Assembly (NCBI RefSeq): GCF_019668485.1
Contig: NZ_AP024619.1
Coordinates: 2,721,757-2,785,756, forward strand
Source of the DNA: Gelria sp. Kuro-4
GTDB taxonomy: Bacteria; Bacillota; DTU030; DUMP01
Reading direction: 5' to 3'
DNA: 64,000 bases
The translations under genes and the position numbers were made by a program. The notes under the pieces were generated by a model that worked only from the letters and a program-made list of their open reading frames with translations, had not been told where the DNA came from and ran no database searches. This document shows positions 3,185 to 61,556 of this stretch, in pieces; position 1 is the stretch's first letter, and every line of letters starts with the position of its first letter.

Positions 3185-3377
3185 GGTTTTTCGTACCCCC
3201 TACCTACTTTAACGTTCAACTAAGGCCACAACCCCAACTCCAGCGCCGCGCAGTCATTCCCCACGCACCCCGACCTTTCCCGTCTCTGGGGCTCCGGTGT
3301 ACGGACGGCAAGGCAACGCCCATGCCGCAGGCGGCCGACAGCGATGGATGAGAATCGAGCCGCCGGCCCGGCCGTTT

Positions 3378-4148
3378 TTACTCCGGGTACTTTTCCGGAT
3401 CGGTGAGGTAACAGAATGTCTCCGGGTTCTCGATAAACGCCTGGTAGAGGGGAGTCCCCTTTACGAGCCCCAGCTTCCGGTACTGGCGCGCCAGGCGCCG
3501 CTGCAGGTGGGGGACATAGTCGTAATGCGGATTGGCCACAAAGGTGGACTCGCCCTGCACCCGCACCTCGTAGTAGGCGGCACCGCCCAGCTTGGCCATC
3601 GGTTCATAGAGTGAGGTGAAGCCGGCGGCCACCCAGTTGGCCATCACCAGGGCCTCATTACTCGGGTTGATGGTAACGTGGCCCCAGTTGGGTGGGATGG
3701 CCACTTTGTCCCCGGCCCCGGCCTCAAAGAGCACCACTTCTTCCACTTCCTGCGTCTCCGGGTCCAGGCGCTGCAGCAGGTAGTGCGCCTGACCGTGCAG
3801 CACTTCGTACACCTCGGGGAAACTCTTTTTCGTTCCCGGGGCCGGTGGGTGATAATGGCCGGCTGTCTTCACATACTCAGGCCCGAGCAGGGCGGGCGGA
3901 ATAATCGTAATGTCATAGCGCAGGCCGTGTCGCCGGATAAGCTCCTCATCCCCGTTTTGGTGGACATCGCGGTACATGAAGTAAAGCTGCTGTTTGGGGT
4001 CCACTGTTGCCGGAGCGTAGAACACCTCTTTCATGTCCCCGGCCAGTCGTACCTGAGGCTGTACCGGCGCGATGCCCCGGCCGAACTTAAGCTCTGTCCC
4101 GTCCAGGGTTAGGGCCAATCCGGCGTTCGCTGAAAGGTCTGTCTGCAT
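3378..4148 (-). CDS. pgiA: glucose-6-phosphate isomerase, cupin (archaeal) type
   Basis: Interconverts glucose 6-phosphate and fructose 6-phosphate using a metal in a cupin barrel, unrelated to the usual Pgi. Protein of 256 residues. The cupin signature is clear: GHYHPPAPGTKKSFPEVYEV near residue 117, supplying two His and a Glu, then GHVTINPSN with the later His. This family was characterised in Archaea and also occurs in anaerobic Firmicutes. ATG start with AGGAGG upstream; a TATAAT at 4198-4203 on this strand gives a leader of about 40 bases. It is divergent from thrC and upstream of pfkA. Confidence 0.88.
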   Translation of the reverse strand: MQTDLSANAGLALTLDGTELKFGRGIAPVQPQVRLAGDMKEVFYAPATVDPKQQLYFMYRDVHQNGDEELIRRHGLRYDITIIPPALLGPEYVKTAGHYHPPAPGTKKSFPEVYEVLHGQAHYLLQRLDPETQEVEEVVLFEAGAGDKVAIPPNWGHVTINPSNEALVMANWVAAGFTSLYEPMAKLGGAAYYEVRVQGESTFVANPHYDYVPHLQRRLARQYRKLGLVKGTPLYQAFIENPETFCYLTDPEKYPE

Positions 4149-4256
4149 GGGGAAACCTCCTCTAGTGCATCCCTACCGACGAAAAGCTACATCGAGTATT
4201 ATATTCGCTGGGTAGGAGGTATATCCTCCCTCTCCTCCCCAAAACTTCCCACGCCG

Positions 4257-4265
4257 TGGTATAAT
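4257..4265 (+). promoter_or_regulatory. extended -10 promoter for thrC
   Basis: TGGTATAAT, a perfect -10 with the TG extension, lies about 30 bases before the thrC start codon. No good -35 is seen, as expected for an extended -10 promoter. Confidence 0.6.
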
Positions 4266-4294
4266 CTGGGTAAAGACTGAAAGGAGGAATCCCT

Positions 4295-5464
4295 TTGCCG
4301 TATCTGGCCTGCACCGGCTGCGGGAAAAAACACCCGCTGGCCACCGACCTGCGCTGCGCGGACTGCGGCGAGCCCCTGGAAGTGCGCTACGAAACCCTCA
4401 CGCCGCCCGCCCGGCTGACGGAAGAGCCCTGCTTTATCGCCCGCAACGTCAACATCTTTCCCTTCCCGAATCTCAGGCCTGAGCTCAGCCTGGGCGAGGG
4501 AGGCACGCCGCTCGTTGAGGCGGTTCACCTGCAAAGAGAAACAGGCATCGGGGAAATTTACTTAAAAAACGAAACCGTCAATCCCACCTGGTCCTTCAAG
4601 GACCGGGGAACATCCCTGGGCGTTCAGGCAGCCCTGCAGCTCGGCTTTGAGCGCGTCGGGACGGTTTCCTCCGGTAATATGGCCGCCTCGGTGGCCGCCT
4701 TCGCCGCCCGCGCCGGGCTGGAGGCTTTCGTCTACGTGGCCGCCGACATCCCCGAGAGCAAGCTGGGTCCCATCGCCATCTACGGCTGCCACCTCACCCG
4801 CGGCACCGGGGATTACGGCAGTCTATACTACCATGCCTTGGCCTTCGGCAAGGAGCGCGGCATCTACTTCATCAGCTCGGACAATCCCTTCCGCATTGAG
4901 GGACAAAAGACGCTGGCCTACGAGATCCTGGACCAGCTCGACTATGAGCCCCTGGATTTCATCGTGCTGCCCGTCTCGAGCGGCGGCAACATGGCCGCTG
5001 TCATCAAGGGCTGCGAAGAACTGGTGGCCCTGGGGCTCATTCAGAAGGCGCCCTTTGTCATCGGCGTGCAGGCCGCCGGCTGCTCGCCCATCGCGCGGGC
5101 CGCGGCAGAAGGCAAAGAAAAGATTGAACCCTTCCCCAACCCCGACACCATCGCCCACGCCATCGCCAATCCCTTCCCGCCCAGTGGCAACCGCATCCTG
5201 CGTAAAGTAAGGGAGGGCCGCGCCACGGTGATGGCCGTAAGCGACGAGGAGATCATCGCCGCCCAGGCCTTCCTGGCGCAGAAAGAGGGCCTGTTCGTGC
5301 AGCCGGCCAGCGCCGCCCCGGTGGCCGCCGTGCGGAGGCTCGCCGCCGCCGGCACCCTGCGGCCCGAGCACCGCGTCGCCGTTATCGTCACCGGCAGCGG
5401 CCTTAAAGACACCGGCGCCCTGGCCCATCACCACCTCGAGGGCGAAACAGCGGAGCGGCGGTAG
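4295..5464 (+). CDS. thrC: threonine synthase
   Basis: PLP enzyme converting O-phosphohomoserine to threonine. Length 389 residues. It starts with TTG, set by the ideal AAGGAGGA site at 4281-4288. The N-terminus is a small zinc ribbon (CTGCG ... CADCG), then the PLP lysine motif NPTWSFKDRGTS, the phosphate-binding SSGNMAASVAAFAARAG, PVSSGGNMAA, and a C-terminal VTGSGLKDTG. All are typical of the ThrC group with an N-terminal Zn finger. No thrA or thrB is adjacent, so it is a single-gene unit with its own extended -10 promoter. Related fold-type II enzymes such as cysteate synthase are possible but less likely. Confidence 0.9.
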   Translation: MPYLACTGCGKKHPLATDLRCADCGEPLEVRYETLTPPARLTEEPCFIARNVNIFPFPNLRPELSLGEGGTPLVEAVHLQRETGIGEIYLKNETVNPTWSFKDRGTSLGVQAALQLGFERVGTVSSGNMAASVAAFAARAGLEAFVYVAADIPESKLGPIAIYGCHLTRGTGDYGSLYYHALAFGKERGIYFISSDNPFRIEGQKTLAYEILDQLDYEPLDFIVLPVSSGGNMAAVIKGCEELVALGLIQKAPFVIGVQAAGCSPIARAAAEGKEKIEPFPNPDTIAHAIANPFPPSGNRILRKVREGRATVMAVSDEEIIAAQAFLAQKEGLFVQPASAAPVAAVRRLAAAGTLRPEHRVAVIVTGSGLKDTGALAHHHLEGETAERR

Positions 5465-5564
5465 GAGGCAGGTCGAGCCCTGAGCGGGCCAAGTGGGAAG
5501 AGCTTCGCTTTGCGTTCCGCGGGGAACTCCCGCAGGGGGTAAGCTGATCTGTGCAGGCTCTGCT

Positions 5565-6656
5565 TTACGGCAGGGCTTTTTCTGTTTCTACGTCGAAGAA
5601 GTGCAGGCGCTCCGGCGCCACCGCCAGGTGCAGGCGCTCGCCCGCGCGCAGCGCGGCGGCCGCGCCCAGGCGCGCCATCAGCTGCGCCCCGTGGAGGCTG
5701 AAGTGGACCAACGTCTCGGCGCCCAGCGGCTCCACCACCTCCACGGTGGCCTCGAGCGCGGTCTCCGGGTGGGCCGTCACAAAGTCCACCTCCGCCCGGA
5801 GATCCTCCGGCCGGATGCCCAGGATCACCTGCTCCCGGCCGGCCAGGGCGGTCGCCTGGGCCTCCGTCAAGCCGAACCTGGCCCGGCCGCCGGCAAAGGT
5901 AAGATGCCGCCCGCCTGTCACCGCAGCAGTGAAAAAGTTCATGGGCGGCGAGCCGATGAAGCCCGCCACAAACACGTTGGCCGGGTGTTCATACACCGCG
6001 CGGGGTGCGGCCACCTGCTGCACCACCCCATCCTTCATCACCACGATCCTGTCGCCCATGGTCATGGCCTCCACCTGGTCGTGGGTGACGTAGACGATGG
6101 TGGCCTTGAGCTCGCGGTGCAGCCGCGCCAGTTCGGCCCGCATGTCCACCCTGAGGCGGGCATCCAGGTTGGAGAGCGGCTCATCCATAAGAAAGACCTG
6201 GGGCTGGCGGACGACGGCCCGGCCCAGGGCCACCCGCTGGCGCTGGCCGCCGGAAAGCTCCCGGGGACGGCGGCTCAAAAGGTGCACAATCCCCAGCCGC
6301 TCGGCCGCCGCCCGCACGCGCCTTTCCACCTCGGCCCGCGGCAGGCGGCGCAGCTTCAGCCCGAAGGCCATGTTTTCAAAGACGTTCATGTGCGGGTAGA
6401 GCGCGTAGTTCTGGAACACCATGGCGATGTCCCGGTCCTTGGGAGCCACGTCGTTAACCAGCCGGTCACCGATGTAGATGCGGCCGGCGGTAACCTCCTC
6501 CAGCCCGGCGATGAGCCGGAGCGTGGTGGTTTTGCCGCAGCCCGACGGCCCCACCAGCACCACGAATTCCTCGTCTTTTATTTCCAGGGTGAGGTCCTTC
6601 ACCACCCGCGTGGAGCCAAAATTCTTCTCAATGTGTTCCAGGTATACCCGGGCCAT
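5565..6656 (-). CDS. ugpC: sugar ABC transporter ATPase (UgpC/MsmK type)
   Basis: Cytoplasmic ATPase energising sugar import, 363 residues from ATG at 6656. A longer upstream frame exists but begins inside the previous gene and lacks homology-like sequence. Walker A GPSGCGKTTTLR, signature LSGGQRQRVALGRA, Walker B VFLMDEPLSNLD and the switch THDQVEAM are intact. The C-terminal 130 residues form a TOBE region as in MalK/UgpC. It is the last gene of the leftward operon, overlapping the ROK kinase by 29 bp. ATPases of this group often serve several importers, so it need not be exclusive to the permeases encoded here. Confidence 0.93.
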   Translation of the reverse strand: MARVYLEHIEKNFGSTRVVKDLTLEIKDEEFVVLVGPSGCGKTTTLRLIAGLEEVTAGRIYIGDRLVNDVAPKDRDIAMVFQNYALYPHMNVFENMAFGLKLRRLPRAEVERRVRAAAERLGIVHLLSRRPRELSGGQRQRVALGRAVVRQPQVFLMDEPLSNLDARLRVDMRAELARLHRELKATIVYVTHDQVEAMTMGDRIVVMKDGVVQQVAAPRAVYEHPANVFVAGFIGSPPMNFFTAAVTGGRHLTFAGGRARFGLTEAQATALAGREQVILGIRPEDLRAEVDFVTAHPETALEATVEVVEPLGAETLVHFSLHGAQLMARLGAAAALRAGERLHLAVAPERLHFFDVETEKALP

Positions 6657-7632
6657 GCCCCTCTCCCCTTCTGTCGCATAGCTTAAGCGCTGCCGCCACG
6701 GCGCCCCGCACGCCGGCGGCACTCCCGAGCACTGCCGGCACCACGGGGTAGGTGACACCGGATGCCGTCATCGTCCGGGCGGCCAGGGTGCGCTTGAGCG
6801 GCCGCAGGAGCTTCTCTCCCGCCTGGGCCACCCCGCCCCCCAGCACGATCCGTTCCGGATTGAGCAGCGTCGCCGCCGTGGCCAGGCCGATGCCCAGGTA
6901 CTCGCCGGTCTCCTCCCAGAGCCAGCGTGCCAGCTCGTCGCCCTGGTCGGCCGCCTGGGACACCAGCTCCGCCGTCACCTTCTTCGTGTCGCCGCCCGCC
7001 AGCCGCCAGAGGAGCGACTCCGGCGCGCGCTCCATGGCCTCCCGCGCCCGGCGGGCGATGGCCGGCCCGGCCGCGTACACCTCCAGGCAGCCGCGGTTGC
7101 CGCAGTTGCAGCGCGGGCCGTCCCGCGTCACCGTGATGTGACCGAACTCGCCCGCCAGCCCCCGGCTGCCGCGGTAGATCTCGCCGCCCAGGATAAGTCC
7201 GGAGCCGATGCCCGTACCCAGGGCCACAAAGATGAGGTCGCGTGCCCCGCGGCCGGCCCCCCACCTTTGCTCCGCCAGCGCCCCCAGGCGCACGTCGTTG
7301 TCCAGCGCCAGGGGACAGGCGAAATGCTCCCGCCAAAAGCCGGCGATATCCACGTCGTGCCAAAAAAGGTTGGGAGAGAAGCGACACAGCCCGCTTTCGC
7401 GCTCCACCATGCCGGGCACGCCCAGGCCGGCGGCGCCCAGGTCCGCTTCCGCCAGGCCATGCTCCGCCAGCAGGCGCCGCACCAGGGCCGCCACCGCCGC
7501 CAGCACCGCCGCTGCGCCGCCGTTCACCGGCGTCGCGCAGCGCTGCTGCGCCAGGATGCGGCCGTCGGCGGCGGCCAAGGCCGCCGCTATCTTGCTCCCG
7601 CCCAGATCGATACCGACAACGTAATGCTCCAT
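6628..7632 (-). CDS. glcK: ROK family sugar kinase (glucokinase-like)
   Basis: Phosphorylates a hexose after uptake. The 334-residue protein has the ATP-binding VGIDLGGSKIAAALA at its N-terminus, the catalytic LDNDVRLGAL, the ROK zinc site GHITVTRDGPRCNCGNRGCLE and a late LGGGVAQAG. These are diagnostic for ROK kinases; glucose is the commonest substrate but is not proven. It lies between the ROK repressor and the ATPase gene in the leftward sugar operon, which points to the same imported sugar or its hydrolysis product. The 3' end overlaps ugpC by 29 bp, suggesting translational coupling. Confidence 0.88.
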   Translation of the reverse strand: MEHYVVGIDLGGSKIAAALAAADGRILAQQRCATPVNGGAAAVLAAVAALVRRLLAEHGLAEADLGAAGLGVPGMVERESGLCRFSPNLFWHDVDIAGFWREHFACPLALDNDVRLGALAEQRWGAGRGARDLIFVALGTGIGSGLILGGEIYRGSRGLAGEFGHITVTRDGPRCNCGNRGCLEVYAAGPAIARRAREAMERAPESLLWRLAGGDTKKVTAELVSQAADQGDELARWLWEETGEYLGIGLATAATLLNPERIVLGGGVAQAGEKLLRPLKRTLAARTMTASGVTYPVVPAVLGSAAGVRGAVAAALKLCDRRGEGHGPGIPGTH

Positions 7633-7665
7633 GTCTTAGCCTCCCTTGCCCGCCCCCGGCCGGGC

Positions 7666-8868
7666 TCAGGGCGCCGTCGTGGCCAGGCGCAGCGGCCGGA
7701 AGACCCGCTGCAGCACCAGGCAGGCGGCGCCCACCAGGCAGACGTTGCGGCCCAGGCTGGTGAGGGCGATCTGGGTATGGTGCTGAATGAGAGGAAGCAG
7801 CCGCGGCCGTGCCGTCTCCACGGCCAGGTCGAAGAGGGGCGGGTATTCCACGGCCAGACGCCCGCCCAGGATGATCATCTCTGGGTTAAAGGTGTTGGCC
7901 AAGCTCGCCACCGCCGCGCCGATGCAGCGGGCGGCCTCACTGAGATCCGCCCGGACCTGGGCATCCCCCGCCCGGGCCGCATCGAGCAGCAGGCTGAGTT
8001 TCTCGCGTTCCTCTTTCCCCGCCCGCTCGGCCAGCCGGCGCGTGAGGGCGATGCCGGAGGCCACCGTCTCCAGGCACCCCGTGCTGCCGCAGCCGCAGCG
8101 GCGCCCGTTGATGTCAATGATCATGTGCCCCACCTCGCCGGCCGCTCCCTGAAAGCCGCGGTAGATCTCGCCGCCGAAGAGGAACCCGCCGCCGATCCCG
8201 AGGTCCAGGAGGAGGAAGATGAGGTGACGCACCCCGCGCGCCGCCCCGTAGCCCCGCTCCCCCAATGCGGCGGCGTTGGCATCGTTCTCCACGTACACCG
8301 GGAGCCCTACCCGCTCCGCCAGGAGGTCCCTGAGCGGCACGTGGTCCCAGCCGGGCAGGTTGGGCGCGGTGAGGGCGGTGCCGGTTTCCACGTCCGTGGG
8401 CCCCGGAAAGGCCACCCCCACCCCCAGGACTGGCGGGCAACGCCGCCGCTCCACCAGGCCCGCCACCGCCGCTGCTACCTCTTGCACCACGGCCAGCGGT
8501 GCCTTGCCGGCCGGGGAAGGGAGCACTTCCATGGCCAGGGGCCGGGCCAGGAGATCGGTGAGCGCCACCGTCACGCGGTCCACCGCCACGTCCACCGCCA
8601 CCGCCTGCCGCGCCCCGGCCGCGAGCGAAAGCAGCGTGGGCTTGCGCCCGCCCTGCGACGCACCGCGGCCCTCGCTGCGCACGTAACCTTCCGCCATGAG
8701 CTCTTCCACAATATTGGATACAGTGGCCGCGGTAAGTCCCGTCAGCCCGGCCAGCTGGGCCCGCGAGAGGCTCCCCTGCTGGCGCAGCGCCTCCAGGACC
8801 AGGGAGCGATTGAGTTCTTTGAGCAGTGTCGTCGAGCCGGTATAGGTCCGGCGCCGTTTCTGTTGCAC
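7666..8868 (-). CDS. ROK family transcriptional repressor (XylR/NagC type)
   Basis: Sugar-responsive DNA-binding protein of 400 residues. The first 75 residues hold a winged helix-turn-helix (LNRSLVLEALRQQGSLSRAQ, then LTAATVSNIVEELMAEGYV). The rest is a ROK sugar-binding domain with FPGPTDVETG, VENDANAAAL and a complete zinc site GRRCGCGSTGCLE. It is encoded inside the sugar ABC operon, four bases after the second permease. It probably represses this operon by binding the 41-bp AT-rich dyad at 12244-12284, relieved by the transported sugar. The inducer is unknown. Confidence 0.88.
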   Translation of the reverse strand: MQQKRRRTYTGSTTLLKELNRSLVLEALRQQGSLSRAQLAGLTGLTAATVSNIVEELMAEGYVRSEGRGASQGGRKPTLLSLAAGARQAVAVDVAVDRVTVALTDLLARPLAMEVLPSPAGKAPLAVVQEVAAAVAGLVERRRCPPVLGVGVAFPGPTDVETGTALTAPNLPGWDHVPLRDLLAERVGLPVYVENDANAAALGERGYGAARGVRHLIFLLLDLGIGGGFLFGGEIYRGFQGAAGEVGHMIIDINGRRCGCGSTGCLETVASGIALTRRLAERAGKEEREKLSLLLDAARAGDAQVRADLSEAARCIGAAVASLANTFNPEMIILGGRLAVEYPPLFDLAVETARPRLLPLIQHHTQIALTSLGRNVCLVGAACLVLQRVFRPLRLATTAP

Positions 8869-8872
8869 GCTG

Positions 8873-9742
8873 TCACCCCTTTACGCCGCCGGCGGTAAGG
8901 CCCGAGACGATCCAGCGCTGGAAGAGAAGCGCCAGAACAACAGGCGGCAAAGCCGCCGCCACCCCCGCCGCGGCGATGCTTTCGTAGGCTGTAATATACT
9001 GGCTGCCGAGCTGCGTGATGTAGAGCGGCAGCGTTAAGGCGTTGGTGGTCTTGGAGAAGATGAGGGCGAGGAGGAACTCATCCCAGGCCAGGAGAAAGGC
9101 CAGGATGCCTGTGGCCACCAGGCCCGGCGCCGCCAGCGGCAGCACCACCAGGCGCAGCGCCATCAGCCGCGTGCAGCCGTCGATGCGCGCCGCCTCCTCC
9201 AGCTCCACGGGTATGGTCAGGAAGTACCCGCGCATGATCCAGACCACAAAGCCCAGGATAAAGGCGTTGTACAAGATGGCGAGGGTCCACCAGCGGTCGT
9301 AAAAGATGGGGATGACGTACTCCAGCCGGATGATGAGCACAAAGAAGGGGATCACCAGCGCGATCACCGGCAGCATGCGCACCGCCAAGAGGCCCATGAT
9401 GAGCGAGTTGCGGCCGCGAAAGGGCAGGCGGGCCAGGGCGTAGGCCGCGAGCGTCCCCACCACCAGGGAAAACGCCGTTACCGACCCGGCAATGTACATG
9501 CTGTTCCTGAAGGCGGCCAGAAAGCGCCGCCCGGTATCCTGGCCGGGGTCGAACATGCTGCTGAAGTTTTCCCAGGTGGGTTGCTGCGGAACCCAGTGGA
9601 CGGGCGTGGAGAGCAGCTCGGCGTGGGTGGAGATGCTGGAGATAAAGAGCCAGCTCACCGGCGCCAGCGTCCAGACCACCATAACCAGCACCGCAAAGTA
9701 AAGCAGGCCGCGCGTCAGATAGTAAGTCAGGGGCCGGCGCAT
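8873..9742 (-). CDS. carbohydrate ABC transporter permease (MalG type)
   Basis: Inner-membrane permease subunit, 289 residues, with about six hydrophobic segments beginning at GLLYFAVLVMVVWTLAPVSW. The cytoplasmic EAA loop that docks the ATPase reads ELEEAARIDGCTRLMALRL followed by VLPLAAPG. The ATG directly abuts the stop codon of the partner permease, so the two are translationally coupled. The sequence fits the CUT1 family of oligosaccharide importers; substrate cannot be assigned. Confidence 0.92.
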   Translation of the reverse strand: MRRPLTYYLTRGLLYFAVLVMVVWTLAPVSWLFISSISTHAELLSTPVHWVPQQPTWENFSSMFDPGQDTGRRFLAAFRNSMYIAGSVTAFSLVVGTLAAYALARLPFRGRNSLIMGLLAVRMLPVIALVIPFFVLIIRLEYVIPIFYDRWWTLAILYNAFILGFVVWIMRGYFLTIPVELEEAARIDGCTRLMALRLVVLPLAAPGLVATGILAFLLAWDEFLLALIFSKTTNALTLPLYITQLGSQYITAYESIAAAGVAAALPPVVLALLFQRWIVSGLTAGGVKG

Positions 9743-10729
9743 CTAGCGCACCTCCTCGGAGTAGAGAAGTTTAATGTAGACAAAGGCGAGGAGGAGGATC
9801 ACCAGGCCCACCAGGAAGGAGAGGGCCGAGCCCCGTCCCAGGTGACCGAAGACAATGCCTTCCTCAAAGGTGTAAATGGAAAGCACCTTAATGGTGTTGG
9901 CCATGATGATGTAGAGGATGTCAAAGACGCGGAAGAGCTCCATGGTGCGCAGCACCAAAACCACCAGGATCACCGGTTTAAGAAGCGGCAGGGTGATGAG
10001 CCGGAACTGCTGCCACACCGTGGCACCGTCCACCCGCGCCGCCTCGTAGTATTCCCGCGGAATAGTCTGCAGGCCGGCCAGCACGAGCAGCGCCACCAGC
10101 GGCGTCACTTTCCAGGTGTCGCCGATGAGGATCATGTTAAGGGCGGTGCTGTCGCCCACCCACTTGAGGAAAGGCCCGAGCACGGGCACATGCGCCCCGG
10201 GCACGGCCGTGCTCAGCCAGACCAGCGGCTCCTTGATCCAGCCCAGGGCGAGGAGCAGACCGTTGAGCGCCCCGTAGGCGTGACCGTCGTAAATCCAGGC
10301 CCACATGCGGGCGTTGACCACCGTGGGCAGAGCCCAGGGGATGAGGATGAGGGCGCGCACCAAACCGCGGCCGAAGAAAGGCTGGTTGAGGATGAGCGCC
10401 ATGCCGATCCCCAGCACCAGCTCCACGGCCAGGGAGACCACCGTGAAGAAGGCCGTCACCCTGAGCGACTCCCAAAAGGCGCGGTTCCCTAGATAGTAGC
10501 GGTAATTTTCCAGGCCGATGAAGCGCCAGGCGATGCCGCCGCGCACCACATGCGCCTCGGTAAAGCTGAGGGCAAAGGCGAGGACGAGCGGTAAAAGGCT
10601 TACCAGAAAAACCACCAGCAGGGTGGGGCTCACCAGCCGCCAGGCCAGCCGGCCGGCCGGTGGCTCCCGCCCCAAGAGAACAGGGCGCTCCTTACGCCTG
10701 ATGCTTGTCTCAAGTCCAACCACTGGCAT
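9743..10729 (-). CDS. carbohydrate ABC transporter permease (MalF type)
   Basis: The other permease half, 328 residues, with about six hydrophobic segments (first LVSPTLLVVFLVSLLPLVLA near residue 30). The EAA loop is YEAARVDGATVWQQFRLITL followed by PLLKPV. It lies between the binding-protein gene (104 bp upstream) and malG-type permease (no gap). A CUT1 family heterodimer with the following gene is expected. Confidence 0.92.
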   Translation of the reverse strand: MPVVGLETSIRRKERPVLLGREPPAGRLAWRLVSPTLLVVFLVSLLPLVLAFALSFTEAHVVRGGIAWRFIGLENYRYYLGNRAFWESLRVTAFFTVVSLAVELVLGIGMALILNQPFFGRGLVRALILIPWALPTVVNARMWAWIYDGHAYGALNGLLLALGWIKEPLVWLSTAVPGAHVPVLGPFLKWVGDSTALNMILIGDTWKVTPLVALLVLAGLQTIPREYYEAARVDGATVWQQFRLITLPLLKPVILVVLVLRTMELFRVFDILYIIMANTIKVLSIYTFEEGIVFGHLGRGSALSFLVGLVILLLAFVYIKLLYSEEVR

Positions 10730-10833
10730 TCAACCTCCGGCACGTTTTCTCCAGCATTCGCCGCCGCGGAAGATTATTCCTGCGCCGGGCCGGAAGCGCA
10801 GGGGGAACGGGACCGGCCCGTTCCCCCGTTACC

Positions 10834-12156
10834 TTACTGCAGCGCCTCGATCTCCTTGACCGCCTGGTCGAGCGCGGCCTGCGGCGCCATCTTTTTCTCC
10901 AGGGCCAGGTGGATGTATTTCTGCATGATGGAGGAAACCTCAGGGTAATTGGCCACCTTCGGCCGGTGATGCACGGCGGCGATCTCCTTGGACTTCACAT
11001 CCATCACCGGGTCCTTGGCCAGCGTGGCCGGGTCTTGCTGCACGGAGGTCCACACCGGCATCTCTTCCAGGTGCTGCGCCTGGAACTCGGGCGCCGTCAT
11101 CCATTTCACCAGTTCCCAGGCCAGGTCCGGCTCCTTGGTGTTGGCCATGACCGCCATGCCCTGGAAGCCGGATACGGAAGCGGTCTCGTAGCTGCCCGCC
11201 TTAAAGACGTCTTTCGCCACCGGGAGCAGCCCCATCTTGGCCTTGCCGACCACCTTGGAGTTGGCCGGGTCGTTCATGAGACCGTACTGGAAGGTCCAGT
11301 TGGAGTTGAAGGCGCAGTTGCCGGAGATAAAAGCGTCTTTGGCCATGGGCTCGTCCTGCACCAGGGAGTTGGGATCGGCCAGGCCTTTATCGAGCCAGCG
11401 TACCATGGTCTCGAGAGCCTTGACGCCGGCACCCTGATTGAAACTGGGTCTGCCTTGGGCATCGAAGGTGTCGCCGCCGTAGGCCCCGGTGAGCCAGACG
11501 TACTCGCAGACCAGGCCCTCTTTCTGGTTCCAGGAGTCGGACCACGGGTACTTGACGATGCCCTTTTTCTTCATTGCGGTCATCATCTCTTCCAGCTCTT
11601 CCATGGTCTTGGGTGGCTCCTTGTAGCCGGCCTTCTCCAGCAGCTCGGTGTTGTAGAAGAAGAGCTGGAAGTTGGCCAAAAACGGCATGGCCCAGGTCTT
11701 GCCGTTGTACTCAAAGGCCGACCAGATGGCCGGGGCGATGTCGTCTTTCTTGATGTCCTTGGCGATCCGGTCGTCGAGCGGCAGAACAAAGCCCTTCTCA
11801 GCGAACTCCGCCGTCCAGATGAGGTCAAGTGAGATCACATCGTAGGTGGCGGTAGGTGCGGCCGCGGAGGTCACGATCTTCTCGTGCTGTTCGTCGTATT
11901 TAACGAAGGTCAGGTTCACCTTGGCACCGGTTTTGTCTTCAAACTCCTTGATGCGCGCCTCGAACACCGGCGGCTGGTAGCCGGCCTGGGCCATGTAGAT
12001 CACGTTCAGGGTTTTGCCGGCAAAAGGCTTATCCGCCGCCGGCGCAGGCTCCTTGGGCGTCTCGGCCGCCGGTTTTGGGGCGCAGCCGGCCGTCAGCGTA
12101 AGCACCAAGAGGCACACCGTAAGGATCGCCAAAGAACGCTTCAGGTAAGTACGCAC
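10834..12156 (-). CDS. sugar ABC transporter substrate-binding lipoprotein
   Basis: Extracytoplasmic sugar receptor of 440 residues. It starts at GTG with a GGGGGAG site. The signal peptide ends in LTLTAGC, a lipobox, so the mature protein is membrane-anchored. It belongs to the family 1 extracellular solute-binding proteins (MalE-like), with LNVIYMAQAGYQPPVFEARI in the first lobe. It is the first gene of the leftward operon and is preceded by the operator-like dyad. The adjacent ROK kinase suggests hexose or a hexose oligosaccharide. Confidence 0.9.
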   Translation of the reverse strand: MRTYLKRSLAILTVCLLVLTLTAGCAPKPAAETPKEPAPAADKPFAGKTLNVIYMAQAGYQPPVFEARIKEFEDKTGAKVNLTFVKYDEQHEKIVTSAAAPTATYDVISLDLIWTAEFAEKGFVLPLDDRIAKDIKKDDIAPAIWSAFEYNGKTWAMPFLANFQLFFYNTELLEKAGYKEPPKTMEELEEMMTAMKKKGIVKYPWSDSWNQKEGLVCEYVWLTGAYGGDTFDAQGRPSFNQGAGVKALETMVRWLDKGLADPNSLVQDEPMAKDAFISGNCAFNSNWTFQYGLMNDPANSKVVGKAKMGLLPVAKDVFKAGSYETASVSGFQGMAVMANTKEPDLAWELVKWMTAPEFQAQHLEEMPVWTSVQQDPATLAKDPVMDVKSKEIAAVHHRPKVANYPEVSSIMQKYIHLALEKKMAPQAALDQAVKEIEALQ

Positions 12157-54182: not shown

Positions 54183-54494
54183 ATGCTACGGCAGCTCTTT
54201 TTCACCTTCTCCATCGCGCTCGGTGTGGTGCTGGGCGGTACCTTCCTGGGCGGGCTCAGCGCCACCCTCAGCGGGCAGCCGCCCGGTGAAACCATGCTCA
54301 ACCTTGCCGAACGCATCAAGGTGTGGGCCATTGTGGTCGCCCTGGAGGGCACCTTTTCCATTTTCCAGGCCCTGGAGGCAGGGCTGCTTTACGGCCAGCT
54401 GCGGCCGGTAGCTCGGCAGCTGGTCTACATACTGGCGGCCTTTCTGGGCGCCCACCTGGCCTGTCTCTTGGTGGCGGGGCTGGTGAAAAGCTGA
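54183..54494 (+). CDS. ytrH: sporulation membrane protein YtrH
   Basis: A 103-residue protein with three hydrophobic segments. Starts LFFTFSIALGVVLGGTFLGG, then KVWAIVVALEGTFSIFQALE and YILAAFLGAHLACLLVAGLV, close to B. subtilis YtrH in order and length. YtrH is made in the mother cell under sigma-E. ATG 54183 follows GGGGGTGG; CATATACT at 54151-54158 resembles a sigma-E -10. It overlaps ytrI by one base (TGATG). Confidence 0.88.
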   Translation: MLRQLFFTFSIALGVVLGGTFLGGLSATLSGQPPGETMLNLAERIKVWAIVVALEGTFSIFQALEAGLLYGQLRPVARQLVYILAAFLGAHLACLLVAGLVKS

Positions 54495-55093
54495 TGGCGC
54501 GCCTGGTACGGCCGCTGGCCTGCCTTGTCCTGGGGTTTCTCCTCGGCAACCTCTTTTACAATTTTCTGGCCGGTCGCTGGTTCGATGAACTGCACGCCCA
54601 GCGGCTGGAGCTGCAGGCCAAGCTGGCGGCGGCGGAAACCCGCCTGGCACGGCTGGAAGAAAGCCTGGCGGCGGCCAGTGAACCGGTGGTGCGCGAGGTT
54701 GAGGTGCGGGTGGGCTCTCCGCTCAACGCCGCGCTTAAGGCGCAGGTGAAAAAAGAGGTGGAAGAGTGGCTGAGCGTATTCATCGGCCGCCCCCTGACCG
54801 CCCTCGACCCGGAAACCATTCCCTTTCTGGTGCACCGGCGCAGCCTTAAATTAAACGGCCGCTCGTATCTCCTGACTGTCGAAACCACAGTCCTCACCGA
54901 GCGGCTGCTCATGTACGTCCGCGTGCAACAGGAAGACGGCCGCAGCTCTGCTCAGGCGCCGGGCGGGGCCTGCGTGACGGCAGGCTGCTTCACCGGCGCC
55001 GCCTGCGGTTCTTTGGGCGGCAGGATGAGTTGCTGCCCAGGTAAAATGAGGCGCGGATTGGCGAGCCGGTTGTGGCGCGATACCTCCAGGTAG
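54494..55093 (+). CDS. ytrI: sporulation membrane protein YtrI-like, extended C-terminus
   Basis: One N-terminal membrane segment (RPLACLVLGFLLGNLFYNFL), a coiled coil (RLELQAKLAAAETRLARLEE), then a small domain ending around VETTVLTERLLMYVRVQQED near residue 150, matching YtrI. The frame then continues for about 48 residues that are antisense to the 3' end of the convergent JAMM-LysM gene and Cys/Gly-rich (GCFTGAACGSLGGRMSCCPG). Those are probably read-through beyond a lost stop codon. Total 199 residues. Overlap with the convergent gene is 142 bp. Confidence 0.8.
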   Translation: MARLVRPLACLVLGFLLGNLFYNFLAGRWFDELHAQRLELQAKLAAAETRLARLEESLAAASEPVVREVEVRVGSPLNAALKAQVKKEVEEWLSVFIGRPLTALDPETIPFLVHRRSLKLNGRSYLLTVETTVLTERLLMYVRVQQEDGRSSAQAPGGACVTAGCFTGAACGSLGGRMSCCPGKMRRGLASRLWRDTSR

Positions 55094-55938
55094 AAGTCCC
55101 CCTGCCCGTAAAAACGTTCGCTGATGCCCCAAAGGGTATCCCCGGGGCGCACAATGTATTTCTGCCCGGCAGGGGCATCCGGTGCCGGCAACGAACCGGT
55201 CATCTCTCCCGTACCCGCCGGCCAGCCCTCCCCGGGGATGGGTGCCGCCGCCGCACCCGCTTGTCCTTCTCTTTGTCCTTCTCCGTCGCCGGGTGCCGCA
55301 GCTGCACCGGCCGGGGCCTTGGTAGCAGCAGGTGCTTCCCCGGCCGCGGGGCCGTGCCGGGATAACCGGGTGAGGCCGACCAGGGCGGCAACCAGGAGAA
55401 CACCGGCCAGCAGCACCACCAGAAGGCGGCGCGGCTTCACCAGGCGCCAGCGGGGGCGCAGGGCAGGCGCCGCCGTAGCGGCCGTCTCGCCTACCGCGTA
55501 GGTTCCTGCGCCGGCCGCCACGGGGACAATCGCCCCGCCTTCCCAGCCATAGAGCGCCTCGCGCCCCAGCTCAGTATCGAGCACCAGAGCCACCTGCCAG
55601 GGCTCGCTGAAGTGTTCCTTGTGCACCGCCATGTCGTAGCCGGAAAGAAAGGCGCCCAAGCCGCAATGCGTGTGAAACCAACCCACCACCTGGAAAGAAG
55701 GGTACTCGCTTTGGCCCCGGGCGCTGAGTTCCGACACCAGTTCCGGCGTGAAGCGGATGCTGCTCCCCACTGAGTCCGCCCCCTGCGCCAGGAGCGCGGC
55801 CTCCACCCGTACCGCCAGCGCCCGGCCACGGTGCACGCGGCCCAAGAGGATACCGCCGATCTCGCGCCCCTGGGCCTGGCGCGCCCAGGTTAAGATTTCA
55901 CTCAGCACCGTGTGCGCCACATGCACCCGTCCCGGCAT
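54952..55938 (-). CDS. JAMM/MPN metalloprotease-like domain fused to TM segment and LysM
   Basis: A 328-residue protein with three parts. Residues 1-150: a JAMM domain with Glu26 (GREIGGILLG) and the metal motif H89-T-H91-x7-S99-x2-D102, all residues present. Residues 165-192: basic stop-transfer KPRR and a hydrophobic helix LLVVLLAGVLLVAALVGL. Residues 195-258: Ala/Pro/Gly linker. Residues 260-307: one LysM domain (YIVRPGDTLWGISERFYGQG). JAMM would face the cytoplasm and LysM the peptidoglycan or spore intermembrane space. No signal peptide before the JAMM domain. Adjacent to ytrH/ytrI, convergent. The combination is not one I know as characterised; a sporulation or envelope-sensing protease is speculation. 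Confidence 0.85.
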   Translation of the reverse strand: MPGRVHVAHTVLSEILTWARQAQGREIGGILLGRVHRGRALAVRVEAALLAQGADSVGSSIRFTPELVSELSARGQSEYPSFQVVGWFHTHCGLGAFLSGYDMAVHKEHFSEPWQVALVLDTELGREALYGWEGGAIVPVAAGAGTYAVGETAATAAPALRPRWRLVKPRRLLVVLLAGVLLVAALVGLTRLSRHGPAAGEAPAATKAPAGAAAAPGDGEGQREGQAGAAAAPIPGEGWPAGTGEMTGSLPAPDAPAGQKYIVRPGDTLWGISERFYGQGDFYLEVSRHNRLANPRLILPGQQLILPPKEPQAAPVKQPAVTQAPPGA

Positions 55939-55974
55939 CTTTATCCCCCCACCGGCGTCCCCTTGCCGGAATTA

Positions 55975-56003
55975 TTAGAAGTTGCCAATCTAACTGCTAT
56001 ATT
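55975..56003 (+). promoter_or_regulatory. promoter of the superoxide dismutase gene
   Basis: TTAGAA, 17-bp spacer, TATATT (55998-56003). Leader about 125 bases before ATG 56136. Confidence 0.5.
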
Positions 56004-56135
56004 CGCGTTCGGAGCCGAGATCCCTGCCGGGCCCCCTGGTAATTAACAAAAGTAACTGTAACCGACCCGAAGTGCGGTGCGTAAGCTATTGAGGACACGT
56101 AGCGAGGACATCCGTCGCCCAAGGAGGAATACCGA

Positions 56136-56765
56136 ATGGCGCAGCTTACACCCCGGCCCCTGCCCTACACCTCCCTTCCCGGCCTCTCGGCACGCCTGCT
56201 GACCGAGCACTACAAGCTGTACCTCGGTTATGTGAATAAAACCAACGAGATCTGGAGCCTGCTCCGCACCGTCAATCGGCAGACGGCCAACGCCACCTAC
56301 AGCCCCTACCGCGAGCTGAAGTTGGAAGAGACTTACGCGCTCAACGGAGTTAAACTGCACGAGCTCTATTTCGGCAACCTGGGCGGGACCGATGGTCCCC
56401 CCAGCGGCGAGGTAAGCTTTTTCCTGCAGCGCGATTTCGGATCGACCGAGGCCTGGGCCCGCGACTTCCGCGCTCTCGGCCTCTCCGCCCGCGGCTGGGG
56501 CATCCTGGCCCTCGACCTTGACGACCGCACCCTGCACAACTTTCTGCTCGATGCCCACAATGTGGGCGGCATCCAGCGCACGGCGCCCCTTCTCGTCCTA
56601 GACGTTTACGAACACGCCTACTTCATTGATTATGGCACCAACCGTTCCGGCTACCTGGATGCCTTCTTTGCCAACATCGATTGGGAAGAGGTCAACCGGA
56701 GGCTCCGCCCTTATCTGGCGCGCAGCGCCCCGGTACCTACACTGAACACCGATTTCTTCGCCTAA
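56136..56765 (+). CDS. superoxide dismutase, Fe/Mn family
   Basis: Detoxifies superoxide; 209 residues, cytoplasmic, no signal peptide. The four metal ligands can be placed: H25 (LLTEHYKLYL), H75 (GVKLHELYFG), D156 and H160 (VLDVYEHAYFIDYG). The sequence is divergent from classical SodA/SodB, like other clostridial members, but the ligand set is complete. Metal preference cannot be told. ATG with AAGGAGGAATACC upstream; monocistronic. Confidence 0.9.
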   Translation: MAQLTPRPLPYTSLPGLSARLLTEHYKLYLGYVNKTNEIWSLLRTVNRQTANATYSPYRELKLEETYALNGVKLHELYFGNLGGTDGPPSGEVSFFLQRDFGSTEAWARDFRALGLSARGWGILALDLDDRTLHNFLLDAHNVGGIQRTAPLLVLDVYEHAYFIDYGTNRSGYLDAFFANIDWEEVNRRLRPYLARSAPVPTLNTDFFA

Positions 56766-58200: not shown

Positions 58201-59229
58201 ATGTCAACGTGGAAAAGCGTAAGAACTTATGTCTTGATCTTGGGTCTGGCCCTGCTCCTGCTCAGTGCCGGCTGCGCCGGCGGGCGGAAGGCCCCAGCGG
58301 AAAAAGAGCCCGCTGCCCCCGCCCCCACCGCCGGCGTTAAAGTGGCGCTTGTGGATGCGGCCGGGGCGAGCAGCGAGGTGGACTTGAGCCGGTTTCCGGC
58401 CGTAAGCGCCAAGGGCGGCTACAAAAAGTCCACCGGCACCATCGTCGGCCCCGACGGCTTTACCGGCGTCAAGGTGAAAGACCTCCTCGCCCAGCTAAAG
58501 TGGGACCCGGCGACGCAGGCCGTGCAGGTGGTAGCAGCTGACGGCTACGCCATGACCTTCACCGCCGACCAGGTGGAAGGCAACCTGCTCACCTACAACC
58601 AGGACGGCTCCCCGGCCAAGCTGGGCGGCGTGGAGATGATCCTGGCCTACAAAACAGACGGGAAAGAGGAAAAAGACCTGCCGCGGATCGTTTTCGTGGG
58701 CGGGAACGCCCCTTTGACCGACGGCCATTTCTGGGTGAAGAACGTGGCCAAGATAGCCCTGACCCAGGCGCCCACGGAGTGGAAGCTGAACCTGAGCGGC
58801 GTGGAGAAAGCGGAGCTCGACCGCTCCACGTTTGAAAGCTTGGCCACCTGCACCGCCACCCCGCACCCCGCCGTCACGTACAAACACACGGATAAAGAAG
58901 GCAAAGAACACGAGTACAAGGGCGTACCGCTCTGGGTGGTGCTCTCCATGGTGGACGGCGCCGACAGCCCGGGCGGTCACTATGTATTTAACGATGACCT
59001 GGCCAAGCAGGGTTACACCGTTCAGGTGGTGGCCAAGGATGGCTTTATGGCAGAGCTTTCCGCCCAGGACGTGGCACGCAACCAGAACATCATCCTGGCC
59101 TACTGGAAGGACGGGGAGCTGCTCCCGCCGGACGAAGGCCCGCTGGCGCTCACGGGGGCCGGCCTCAAGAGCAACAAGGAACGAATCAAGCAGGTGGCCG
59201 AAATCCGCCTCACCAACCTGCCTAAGTGA
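58201..59229 (+). CDS. lipoprotein with two tandem sulfite-oxidase-fold (molybdopterin-binding-like) domains
   Basis: A 342-residue surface lipoprotein: signal peptide ending LLSAGC with lipid-modified C25, a Pro/Ala linker, then two similar domains at about 45-190 and 194-342. Each has the pattern of the oxidoreductase molybdopterin-binding fold: GFTGVKVKDLLAQL then VVAADGYAMTF in the first, YKGVPLWVVLSMV then VVAKDGFMAEL and ILAYWKDGELL in the second. Domain two has C217 (SLATCTATPHP) about where the Mo-ligating Cys of sulfite oxidase lies; domain one has none. Possibly a cofactor-capture protein for the ECF transporter downstream. No enzyme partner or heme domain is seen. Confidence 0.72.
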   Translation: MSTWKSVRTYVLILGLALLLLSAGCAGGRKAPAEKEPAAPAPTAGVKVALVDAAGASSEVDLSRFPAVSAKGGYKKSTGTIVGPDGFTGVKVKDLLAQLKWDPATQAVQVVAADGYAMTFTADQVEGNLLTYNQDGSPAKLGGVEMILAYKTDGKEEKDLPRIVFVGGNAPLTDGHFWVKNVAKIALTQAPTEWKLNLSGVEKAELDRSTFESLATCTATPHPAVTYKHTDKEGKEHEYKGVPLWVVLSMVDGADSPGGHYVFNDDLAKQGYTVQVVAKDGFMAELSAQDVARNQNIILAYWKDGELLPPDEGPLALTGAGLKSNKERIKQVAEIRLTNLPK

Positions 59230-59254
59230 ACCCTAAGAAAGGCGGCGGGCAAAG

Positions 59255-60535
59255 ATGAGGCTGCCGATGCGGTTGCGCAGGCCGCTGGTGCTTGTAGCGT
59301 CCCTCCTCTTTCTCAGCCTGCTTGCTGCCACCGGCTGTGCCGGCACCACCCCCCGCAGCCTTACCTTGGCCGTGGTGGGCGATAGCCAGGGCCGAAGCGC
59401 TGTCTGGGAAGCCGTCGTCGACGCGATCAATGCGGAAAGTCCGGCCTTCGTCGTCCACTGCGGCGACCTGACGCCGGCGGGCACCCGCGAGCAATACCTC
59501 TACTTTAAGGAGCAGGCTGAGAAGCTGCGCGTCCCCTTCTACGCCGTGCCGGGCAACCACGATGTCCGCGGCCAGGGACGCCGTCTCTTTACGGAGTTGA
59601 CCGGTTCCCCGCCGTGCTGGTCCTTTGCCCGGGACGGATATCACTTCCTGGGACTGGATGACGCCGACGGTGAACTCTCCCAGGAGCAGCTGGACTGGCT
59701 GGCGGCGGAACTGGCGCGGCCTGGTCCCAAGCTCATCTTTCTTCACGTCCCCCTGTGGGACCCACGCCCAGGAGAAGACCACGCCTTAAAGAGCGCGGAA
59801 GAAGCCGCCCAGCTGCATGCACTTTTCCGGCAGCACCAGGTCATCGCCGTCTTCAGCGGCCATGTTCACCTCTTCGCCTGCCGGGAAAAGGACGGCATAA
59901 CCTATGTGACCACCGGCGGTGCCGGCGCGCCCCTCTACGCGCCGCGGGCGGCCGGCGGCTTTCACCATTGGACCCGCGTGCAGCTTTCGGGCGGTCGAGT
60001 TAAGGTGGAGGCCGTACCGGTAGAACCGGCAGCCACAGAGCCTACGGTGACGGTTACCACGCCGTCAGCGACCCGCTCCTTCACGCTGGAAGAACTGCTG
60101 GCGTTTCCCGCCGTTACGGTGAAAGCGGCCTTTGAGAACCAGTTCGGCAACCGGGGCGGCGAAGGAGAGTATACGGGAGTACCTCTTGCCCACCTCCTGG
60201 AGGCGGTGAACGGCCTTTCGCCCGGCCAGACGCTTAAGGTGGTGGCTGAAGACGGCTACAGCCAGGAGTTCGGTTACGCCAATCTCTACCCAGCTAAAGA
60301 ATGGCTTAAGTTGCAGGGAAGCATGCTCCTGGCCTACGAGAAGGACGGGCGGCTGGCGCCGGACTGGGAAGAAGGACCGCGCCTGGTGCTGGCCCCGGCG
60401 GATGGGCTCTACAGCAACACCGACTGCGCCCAGACCTCTCTGCCCGGCCAGGGTTGGAACGTCTATCCCTCGGCCGGCGGGCGCTGGGTGAGACAGGTCA
60501 AGCGGATCGAGGTGGTAAAAGATGCAGGAGAATAA
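59255..60535 (+). CDS. lipoprotein metallophosphoesterase with C-terminal sulfite-oxidase-fold domain
   Basis: A 426-residue extracytoplasmic protein. The signal peptide ends LAATGC (C28). The calcineurin-like phosphoesterase domain shows all metal motifs: VVGDSQG, VVHCGDLTPAG, VPGNHDVRG, FLHVPLW and FSGHVHLF. From about residue 265 a domain like those of the preceding lipoprotein follows (YTGVPLAHLLEAV, VVAEDGYSQEFG, MLLAYEKDGRLAP). It lacks the ligating Cys. It overlaps the S-component gene by 14 bp. A plausible role is removing phosphate or nucleotide from a pterin cofactor before uptake; the substrate is unknown. Confidence 0.8.
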   Translation: MRLPMRLRRPLVLVASLLFLSLLAATGCAGTTPRSLTLAVVGDSQGRSAVWEAVVDAINAESPAFVVHCGDLTPAGTREQYLYFKEQAEKLRVPFYAVPGNHDVRGQGRRLFTELTGSPPCWSFARDGYHFLGLDDADGELSQEQLDWLAAELARPGPKLIFLHVPLWDPRPGEDHALKSAEEAAQLHALFRQHQVIAVFSGHVHLFACREKDGITYVTTGGAGAPLYAPRAAGGFHHWTRVQLSGGRVKVEAVPVEPAATEPTVTVTTPSATRSFTLEELLAFPAVTVKAAFENQFGNRGGEGEYTGVPLAHLLEAVNGLSPGQTLKVVAEDGYSQEFGYANLYPAKEWLKLQGSMLLAYEKDGRLAPDWEEGPRLVLAPADGLYSNTDCAQTSLPGQGWNVYPSAGGRWVRQVKRIEVVKDAGE

Positions 60536-61556
60536 AGCGTGCGGCTATTACCTGACCACGCGGGAGCTCATTACCATGGCCGTCCTGAGTGCCCTGGGCG
60601 GGGTGCTCAGCGCCTACGTGGGCTATCTCGGCAACCTGGTGAACCAATTCTTCGGCGTGCCGTTCGGAGCCGGCCAGTTCATGGGCGGGCTGCACGTGTT
60701 CTGGTTCATCGTTCTGGCCGGGCTGGTGCGCAAGCCCGGCGCCGTCACGGCGGTCGGCCTCCTTAAGGGACTGGTGGAGATGCTCACCGGCAGCACCCAC
60801 GGCGCAGTCATCGTGCTGGTGTGCGTCGTGCAGGCGGCGGCGGTGGATGCCGTGATCTCCCTCCGGCGCGAGCCGGGGCTGGGCACCTACCTGGTTGCCG
60901 GCGCGGCGGGGACCGTCAGCGAGGTCATTCTCATGCAGCTGCTTTACTTTTCCGGCGCCCCGGCCTGGTACATTCTCCTTATGACCGCCCTGGCGGCCGC
61001 CTCCGGCGTCATCTTCGCCGGCTATCTGGGCAGCGGGGTGCTGGGGTTGCTGGAACACGGGCGGCCCGCCGCAGCAGGGCCGGTCGCCCCGCGCGCCCGC
61101 ACCGTCCAGTTCGCCATAACCCTCCTTCTCGGCGCTCTTCTCGCCGGGGGCGCCGTGTTCTACTACGCCTGCGTCTTCGAGCCCTTTTGGGCGGCGCCCG
61201 GCGTGGCCGTCGAGGGTAAGGTGGCGCACCCTTACACGTACCGGGCGGAGAGTTTTGCCGCCCCGGCCATCACAGTAACAGCGGAGCTGAAGGGCAGCGT
61301 CACCTACGTGGCGCCGCGCGACTACACCGGTGTGCCGCTCAAAAAGATCTTGACAGCCGCCCGGCCGGACGCCGCGGCCACCAAGGTAACGGTGAGTGCC
61401 GGAGACGGTTACTCGGTGGAATTCCCTTTGCCCGACCTGCTTAAGGATGACGAGACCCTCCTGATCCAAGAAGAAGACGGATCCTACCGCCTGATCGCCC
61501 CGCGCTACGCCGGCGGCTACTGGGTGCGTCAGGTAACCCGTATCAAGGTTGAATGA
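60522..61556 (+). CDS. ECF transporter S-component (YkoE-like) fused to a sulfite-oxidase-fold domain
   Basis: A 344-residue membrane protein. Residues 1-190 hold about six hydrophobic segments resembling YkoE (LTTRELITMAVLSALGGVLS, FIVLAGLVRKPGAVTAVGLL, GSTHGAVIVLVCVVQAAAVD). An extra segment (FAITLLLGALLAGGAVFYYA) carries the chain outside, where residues 230-344 form a small domain with YTGVPLKKIL, TVSAGDGYSVEF and GGYWVRQVTRI, the same fold as in the two lipoproteins. YkoE itself serves thiamine/HMP uptake, but here the leader is not a TPP riboswitch. The fused outer domain suggests a docking or capture site for the cargo. Confidence 0.78.
   Translation: MQENKACGYYLTTRELITMAVLSALGGVLSAYVGYLGNLVNQFFGVPFGAGQFMGGLHVFWFIVLAGLVRKPGAVTAVGLLKGLVEMLTGSTHGAVIVLVCVVQAAAVDAVISLRREPGLGTYLVAGAAGTVSEVILMQLLYFSGAPAWYILLMTALAAASGVIFAGYLGSGVLGLLEHGRPAAAGPVAPRARTVQFAITLLLGALLAGGAVFYYACVFEPFWAAPGVAVEGKVAHPYTYRAESFAAPAITVTAELKGSVTYVAPRDYTGVPLKKILTAARPDAAATKVTVSAGDGYSVEFPLPDLLKDDETLLIQEEDGSYRLIAPRYAGGYWVRQVTRIKVE

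Follow-up and report, generated by a model that had tools for sequence, protein, structure and literature searches.

JAMM enzymes remove or trim ubiquitin-like (Ubl) tags, and the stretch of DNA analysed here (the window: 64,000 nucleotides of Gelria sp. Kuro-4, NZ_AP024619.1, positions 2,721,757 to 2,785,756) encodes one that is fused to a transmembrane (TM) helix and a LysM domain. How did such an enzyme come to be joined to a wall-binding module, and what might it do there? The available portions of papers on bacterial Ubl operons (Iyer et al. 2006, PMC1779556; the tri-ligase systems cited in PMC7159879; BilABCD, PMC11354881) describe JAB domains that stand alone or are fused to E1 and do not mention a JAB-TM-LysM protein, and an excerpt of a further paper describes the prokaryotic JAMMs known by 2012 as intracellular (PMC3482391). 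A preliminary description of the locus had called the link of a JAMM to peptidoglycan binding unexpected, and we found no account of a JAMM or JAB domain combined with LysM in the open-licence full-text literature, while subscription journals may hold one.

A JAMM domain, a TM helix and a LysM domain in one protein

The gene and its parts are located as follows.

54952..55938, minus strand: JAMM-TM-linker-LysM gene, 328 aa, ATG start (ORF, translation, family conservation)
55519..55929, minus strand: JAMM/MPN+ domain, residues 4-140 (Pfam JAB and Prok-JAB over cut-off, invariant motif)
55357..55434, minus strand: single TM helix, residues 169-194 (hydropathy, single-sequence model)
55165..55356, minus strand: Ala/Gly/Pro-rich linker, residues 195-258, about 60 residues of low complexity (sequence; weakly conserved)
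55018..55158, minus strand: LysM domain, residues 261-307 (Pfam LysM 2.6e-8, dN/dS)
55939..55950, minus strand: probable ribosome-binding site, GGGGGG-ATAAAG (sequence)

The N-terminal domain matched the Pfam families JAB (PF01398; residues 4-107, 3.8e-9, 36.8 bits against a cut-off of 22.5) and Prok-JAB (PF14464; 1.7e-6, 28.4 bits against 25), and a JAMM profile searched against structures matched archaeal Rpn11 (6fjv, 1.1e-7) and also CSN5. Residues E26, H89-T-H91, S99 and D102 fit the JAMM motif E-Xn-H-S/T-H-X7-S-X2-D, which is thus as complete as in the JAMM/MPN+ enzymes Rpn11, CSN5 and archaeal Rpn11. Unlike these, the window protein is probably tethered to the membrane and wall, and it was found with neither a proteasome nor a signalosome, nor with a Ubl or cognate E1. 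The C-terminal domain matched LysM (PF01476; residues 261-307, 34.1 bits against 20.9). It also matched the model of SafA at 2.8e-6, below the cut-off, but SafA and SpoVID have no JAB domain.

Hydropathy revealed one hydrophobic segment (residues 172-190). A single-sequence AlphaFold model was poor overall (mean pLDDT 43), with the helix at residues 169-194 as its sole well-scored part. No signal peptide was apparent on inspection by eye, and basic residues (R163, R165, K168, R170 and R171) lie just N-terminal of the helix, both of which suggest an N-in topology with the JAMM domain in the cytosol and the LysM domain outside. The preliminary description had correctly listed the JAMM residues and the succession of one TM helix, linker and LysM, and its coordinates, strand and frame were right.

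The architecture is conserved and under purifying selection

We compared the eight genomes of the window family (G000 to G007, G000 being the window genome). All eight encode the JAMM-TM-linker-LysM order as one ORF, and the five JAMM motif residues are invariant among them. For family pairs with unsaturated dS, dN/dS was ∼0.08-0.15 in the JAMM part and 0.05-0.12 in the LysM part, indicating strong purifying selection on both. The linkers have higher dN/dS values than either domain and are drifting; together with the TM helix they are the less conserved parts of the protein. A chance join, or the frameshift artefact that the preliminary description had considered as a way in which two genes might have been merged, is excluded by the single ORF in all eight genomes and the low dN/dS. 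A search of the genome contigs with the window protein alone returned one match, the LysM domain of a phage-like gene cluster, which is unrelated, and the genome of Gelria sp. Kuro-4 encodes one Prok-JAB protein.

Relatives across the phylum and their link to Ubl systems

We searched a sample of 399 genomes from the phylum with a JAMM-domain profile and inspected the ORFs. Domains related to the window JAMM are present in 31 genomes, arranged as JAB-TM-LysM in 20, as JAB-TM in 5 and as a soluble JAMM next to a YukD-like Ubl and E1 in 3; in the remaining genomes the architecture is unclear or the gene is linked to cysteine synthase. Hence, the fusion is real, as the preliminary description had it, but not unique, and it mostly carries a degraded metal site. 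The window family, L051, the Ubl-linked JAMMs and L054 and L055 have kept their metal ligands, whereas the ligands are lost in most other JAB-TM-LysM members (for example L053, L056, L060-L063, L066, L100 and L105-L107). Within the class of G180, most JAB-TM-LysM members found have lost them, with G471 as the intact exception. Since most JAB-TM-LysM relatives lack the ligands, the function that they share may not be catalytic. The JAB tree was poorly resolved, with long branches and an unsettled basal order. For the window protein, PADLOC returned nothing beyond weak generic JAB matches. In four lineages lepB and a YpiB-like gene lie near the JAB gene; degenerate JAB-LysM genes near signal peptidase I and a YpiB-like (UPF0302/IDEAL) gene were seen in L053, L056, L058, L061 and L063.

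By sequence, the window JAMM lineage groups with the JAMMs of bacterial YukD-type Ubl systems. The genes for its soluble relatives adjoin those for a YukD Ubl (3.4e-16), an E1 (2.3e-56) and a trypsin-like protease. These four genes are clustered in L050 (2713-6462), where the Ubl ends in ITAG plus a short extension, and in L052 (5303-9612), where ITAG forms the C-terminus. G471 contains an apparently complete cassette (L156, G471:C22:1-14500, 3281-11898) that encodes both an intact JAMM-TM-LysM protein and an intact JAMM-TM protein along with matches to YukD (4.2e-12), ThiF (E1, 5e-55), UQ_con (E2, 2.8e-6, joined with FHA) and Prok-RING_1 (9e-14) and a trypsin-like protease; its YukD-like Ubl has ITAG followed by a C-terminal Zn-ribbon extension. 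The Ubl-E1-E2-(RING)-JAB operons of bacteria therefore contain a related JAMM lineage, and in G471 even the same architecture. The window family differs from them: sequence searches of its eight genomes identified no YukD-like Ubl (PF08817) and no E1 of the L050 (cassette) type, the E1 search giving only weak matches to a MoeB-MobB-like fusion and other short ThiF-domain proteins. The window JAMM is probably orphaned, as neither the Ubl nor its cognate E1 was found in the family. The expectation that it would be linked to Ubl proteins thus holds for its relatives, which sit in Ubl operons, but neither partner was found in the window genome.

A conserved upstream motif resembles sigma-H promoters

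Aligning the 200 nt before each of the eight family genes revealed a block, GCAGGGAtyt-N-aCGAATA, situated 60-75 nt upstream of the start in all of them, with the first part reading GGAGGGA in two. The copy in the window is the following.

56000..56027, minus strand: probable sigma-H promoter, GCAGGGATCT...CGAATA, 61 nt before the ATG (conservation in 8/8, genome scan)

The pattern GCAGGRA-N(10-24)-CGAATA is expected 0.03 times by chance in the window, and it occurs at 25 sites in the genome compared with 2 in a reversed control, mostly with the same spacing. Mapped transcription start sites in Sporomusa define sigma-H promoters by a -35 AGGA, a -10 GAAT and a spacer of 17-18 nt (PMC12456013). 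The family site, AGGG-17-GAAT, has the -10 element, a spacer of 17 and three of the four -35 positions; judged by both elements, the spacer and the sharing of the motif with known sigma-H genes, we counted it as sigma-H-like, with AGGG in place of AGGA. Genes behind the motif sites, named by eye, include spoIIAA-, spoVS-, ymdB-, sigI-, tilS- and ispH-like genes and two encoding LysM or wall proteins, and spoIIAA depends on sigma-H in B. subtilis (PMC9931155). The shared motif, its spacing and its presence before the spoIIAA-like gene argue that sigma-H is probably the factor that transcribes the JAMM-LysM gene. Altogether, the 25-site set spans sporulation-like genes, a SigI-like gene, LysM proteins and metabolic genes. 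The sigma-H regulon of Sporomusa comprises 322 genes, metabolism included (PMC12456013), and since sigma-H can govern such wide gene sets in bacteria of this kind, a sigma-H promoter alone does not imply sporulation.

Control by sigma-E or sigma-G, which the preliminary description had envisaged, was not borne out: among patterns for sigma-E, sigma-G, sigma-F and sigma-A upstream of the eight family genes we found one sigma-E-like match (L017) and nothing conserved. Upstream of distant JAB-TM-LysM genes, sigma-H-like sites are present in 5 of 13, compared with 12.5% of a control gene set that contains the JAB genes themselves (p ∼0.016), an enrichment that is only suggestive. SpoIVA is encoded in all 26 JAB-hit genomes, but also in 334 of the 399 overall (hypergeometric 0.008, ∼0.08 at one genome per family), so the phyletic correlation with sporulation, although present, is weak.

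The gene neighbourhood

The gene is flanked by the following features.

54183..54494, plus strand: ytrH, convergent neighbour outside the unit (Pfam Spore_YtrH, 1.4e-33)
54494..55093, plus strand: ytrI-like frame (NCBIfam YtrI, 7.5e-4, below cut-off)
56136..56765, plus strand: superoxide dismutase (SOD), divergent neighbour (Pfam Sod_Fe_C)

Proximity to ytrH and ytrI had been taken as a hint of a sporulation role. The genes are indeed adjacent in the window, but they lie on the opposite strand, convergent with the JAMM-LysM gene, and ytrHI adjoins it in only two of the eight family loci (the window and L019). For these reasons the neighbourhood is weak evidence, and the connection to the sporulation phase is carried by the sigma-H-like promoter instead. 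The ytrI frame has no early stop and extends in antisense over the last 142 bp of the LysM gene. The alignment of this frame with its homologue in L019 spans only 141 aa. The congeners L015 and L016 have a glycolipid synthase gene immediately beside the JAMM gene. Genes on the divergent flank are shared by more loci: an ECF gene by 8/8 and SOD by 4/8 (the window and three of the seven others). No conserved operon partner of the JAMM-LysM genes was found.

Possible functions of the JAMM-TM-LysM protein

Our preferred reading of these sequences, to which we give roughly even chances, is an orphaned, wall-tethered JAMM peptidase that derives from a Ubl system and is used at the transition to sporulation. 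It would be a single-pass, N-in protein with a cytosolic JAMM/MPN+ zinc peptidase, a TM helix, a flexible linker and a LysM domain that presumably sits on peptidoglycan, probably transcribed by sigma-H RNA polymerase as cells leave growth and enter sporulation. Its ancestor would have been a membrane- or wall-tethered JAMM of a Ubl system that was orphaned in the window family while retaining the motif, and in other lineages the JAMM domain would often have decayed to a module without the usual catalysis. The enzyme may cut, or only grip, another cytoplasmic or membrane protein at sites of wall remodelling. It might also report on wall or forespore status, as the preliminary description proposed. 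The polar septum is a reasonable first place to look, because the TM-plus-LysM proteins YneA and SpoIIIM act at the septum.

The decay of the metal site in so many relatives raises the question of whether the JAB domain is mainly a binding module, positioned by the TM helix and LysM at the growing or septal wall, where it would recruit a cytosolic partner with residual or no catalysis. The MPN- subunits of eukaryotes, which bind without cutting, are a precedent, and since JAB-TM-LysM was kept while the ligands were lost in many lineages, including most members found in the class of G180, a role in binding is spread at least as widely as a catalytic one. For the window family itself we regard this as possible but rather unlikely: its five motif residues are invariant and its JAMM part is constrained, while the decayed members illustrate how lost constraint would look. 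A different division of labour, which we consider distinctly unlikely, is a regulator like YneA or SpoIIIM, in which the TM helix and LysM would act on the synthesis of the septal wall or the stability of the pore, with JAB added as a control domain. Both proteins have a single TM helix followed by an extracellular LysM and a role in the cell cycle or sporulation; YneA blocks septal synthesis through these parts (PMC13396833), SpoIIIM, a sporulation protein of similar topology, stabilises the septum (PMC11270862), and a sigma-H promoter would suit the timing of polar septation. However, both are without a cytosolic enzyme domain, YneA is SOS-induced and SpoIIIM is made in the mother cell, and the TM residues that are critical in YneA correspond to one of the less conserved parts here.

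Two further alternatives concern the substrate. The family could retain a Ubl-conjugation set that escaped detection, with the JAMM-LysM protein as its membrane-bound deconjugase; G471 has exactly such an arrangement and Ubls diverge fast, but the negative searches for the L050-type E1 and YukD in all eight genomes, together with the nature of the E1 matches, leave this a small probability. Processing of a sulfur carrier of the CysO/Mec, ThiS or MoaD type, with an incidental membrane anchor, is the usual job of stand-alone bacterial JAMMs, and cysteine-synthase-linked JAMM-like matches occur in the phylum (L108, L109). We give it very little credence. Although the window protein has the Prok-JAB fold in common with Mec/CysO-type JAMMs, these are soluble and beside cysM, whereas it is neither; the three small ThiS/MoaD-like proteins of the Gelria sp. 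Kuro-4 genome already end in GG and therefore need no trimming, and purifying selection on LysM does not fit an incidental anchor.

The orphaned, wall-tethered peptidase could be part of a larger history, which we think unlikely as a whole. Bacillota would have tied a Ubl deconjugase to peptidoglycan as JAMM-TM-LysM, coupling intracellular protein modification to wall status. In the window family the peptidase would have outlived its modifier and come under sigma-H control so as to cut another target as sporulation begins, and in many other lineages it would have become a non-catalytic, wall-sensing scaffold. A wall-tethered JAMM that is probably switched on by sigma-H provides a link, open to testing, from ubiquitin-like chemistry to the remodelling of the wall or to polar division in spore-forming bacteria. 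Active sites have decayed again and again across the broad family, whose members thus form a natural series in which to ask at what point a JAMM gives up cutting for binding.

Another gene group in the window

Three adjacent genes at 58201-61556 each encode an Oxidored_molyb domain, and their partners, fused or adjacent, are a lipoprotein-like N-terminus, a metallophosphatase and an ABC_cobalt permease.
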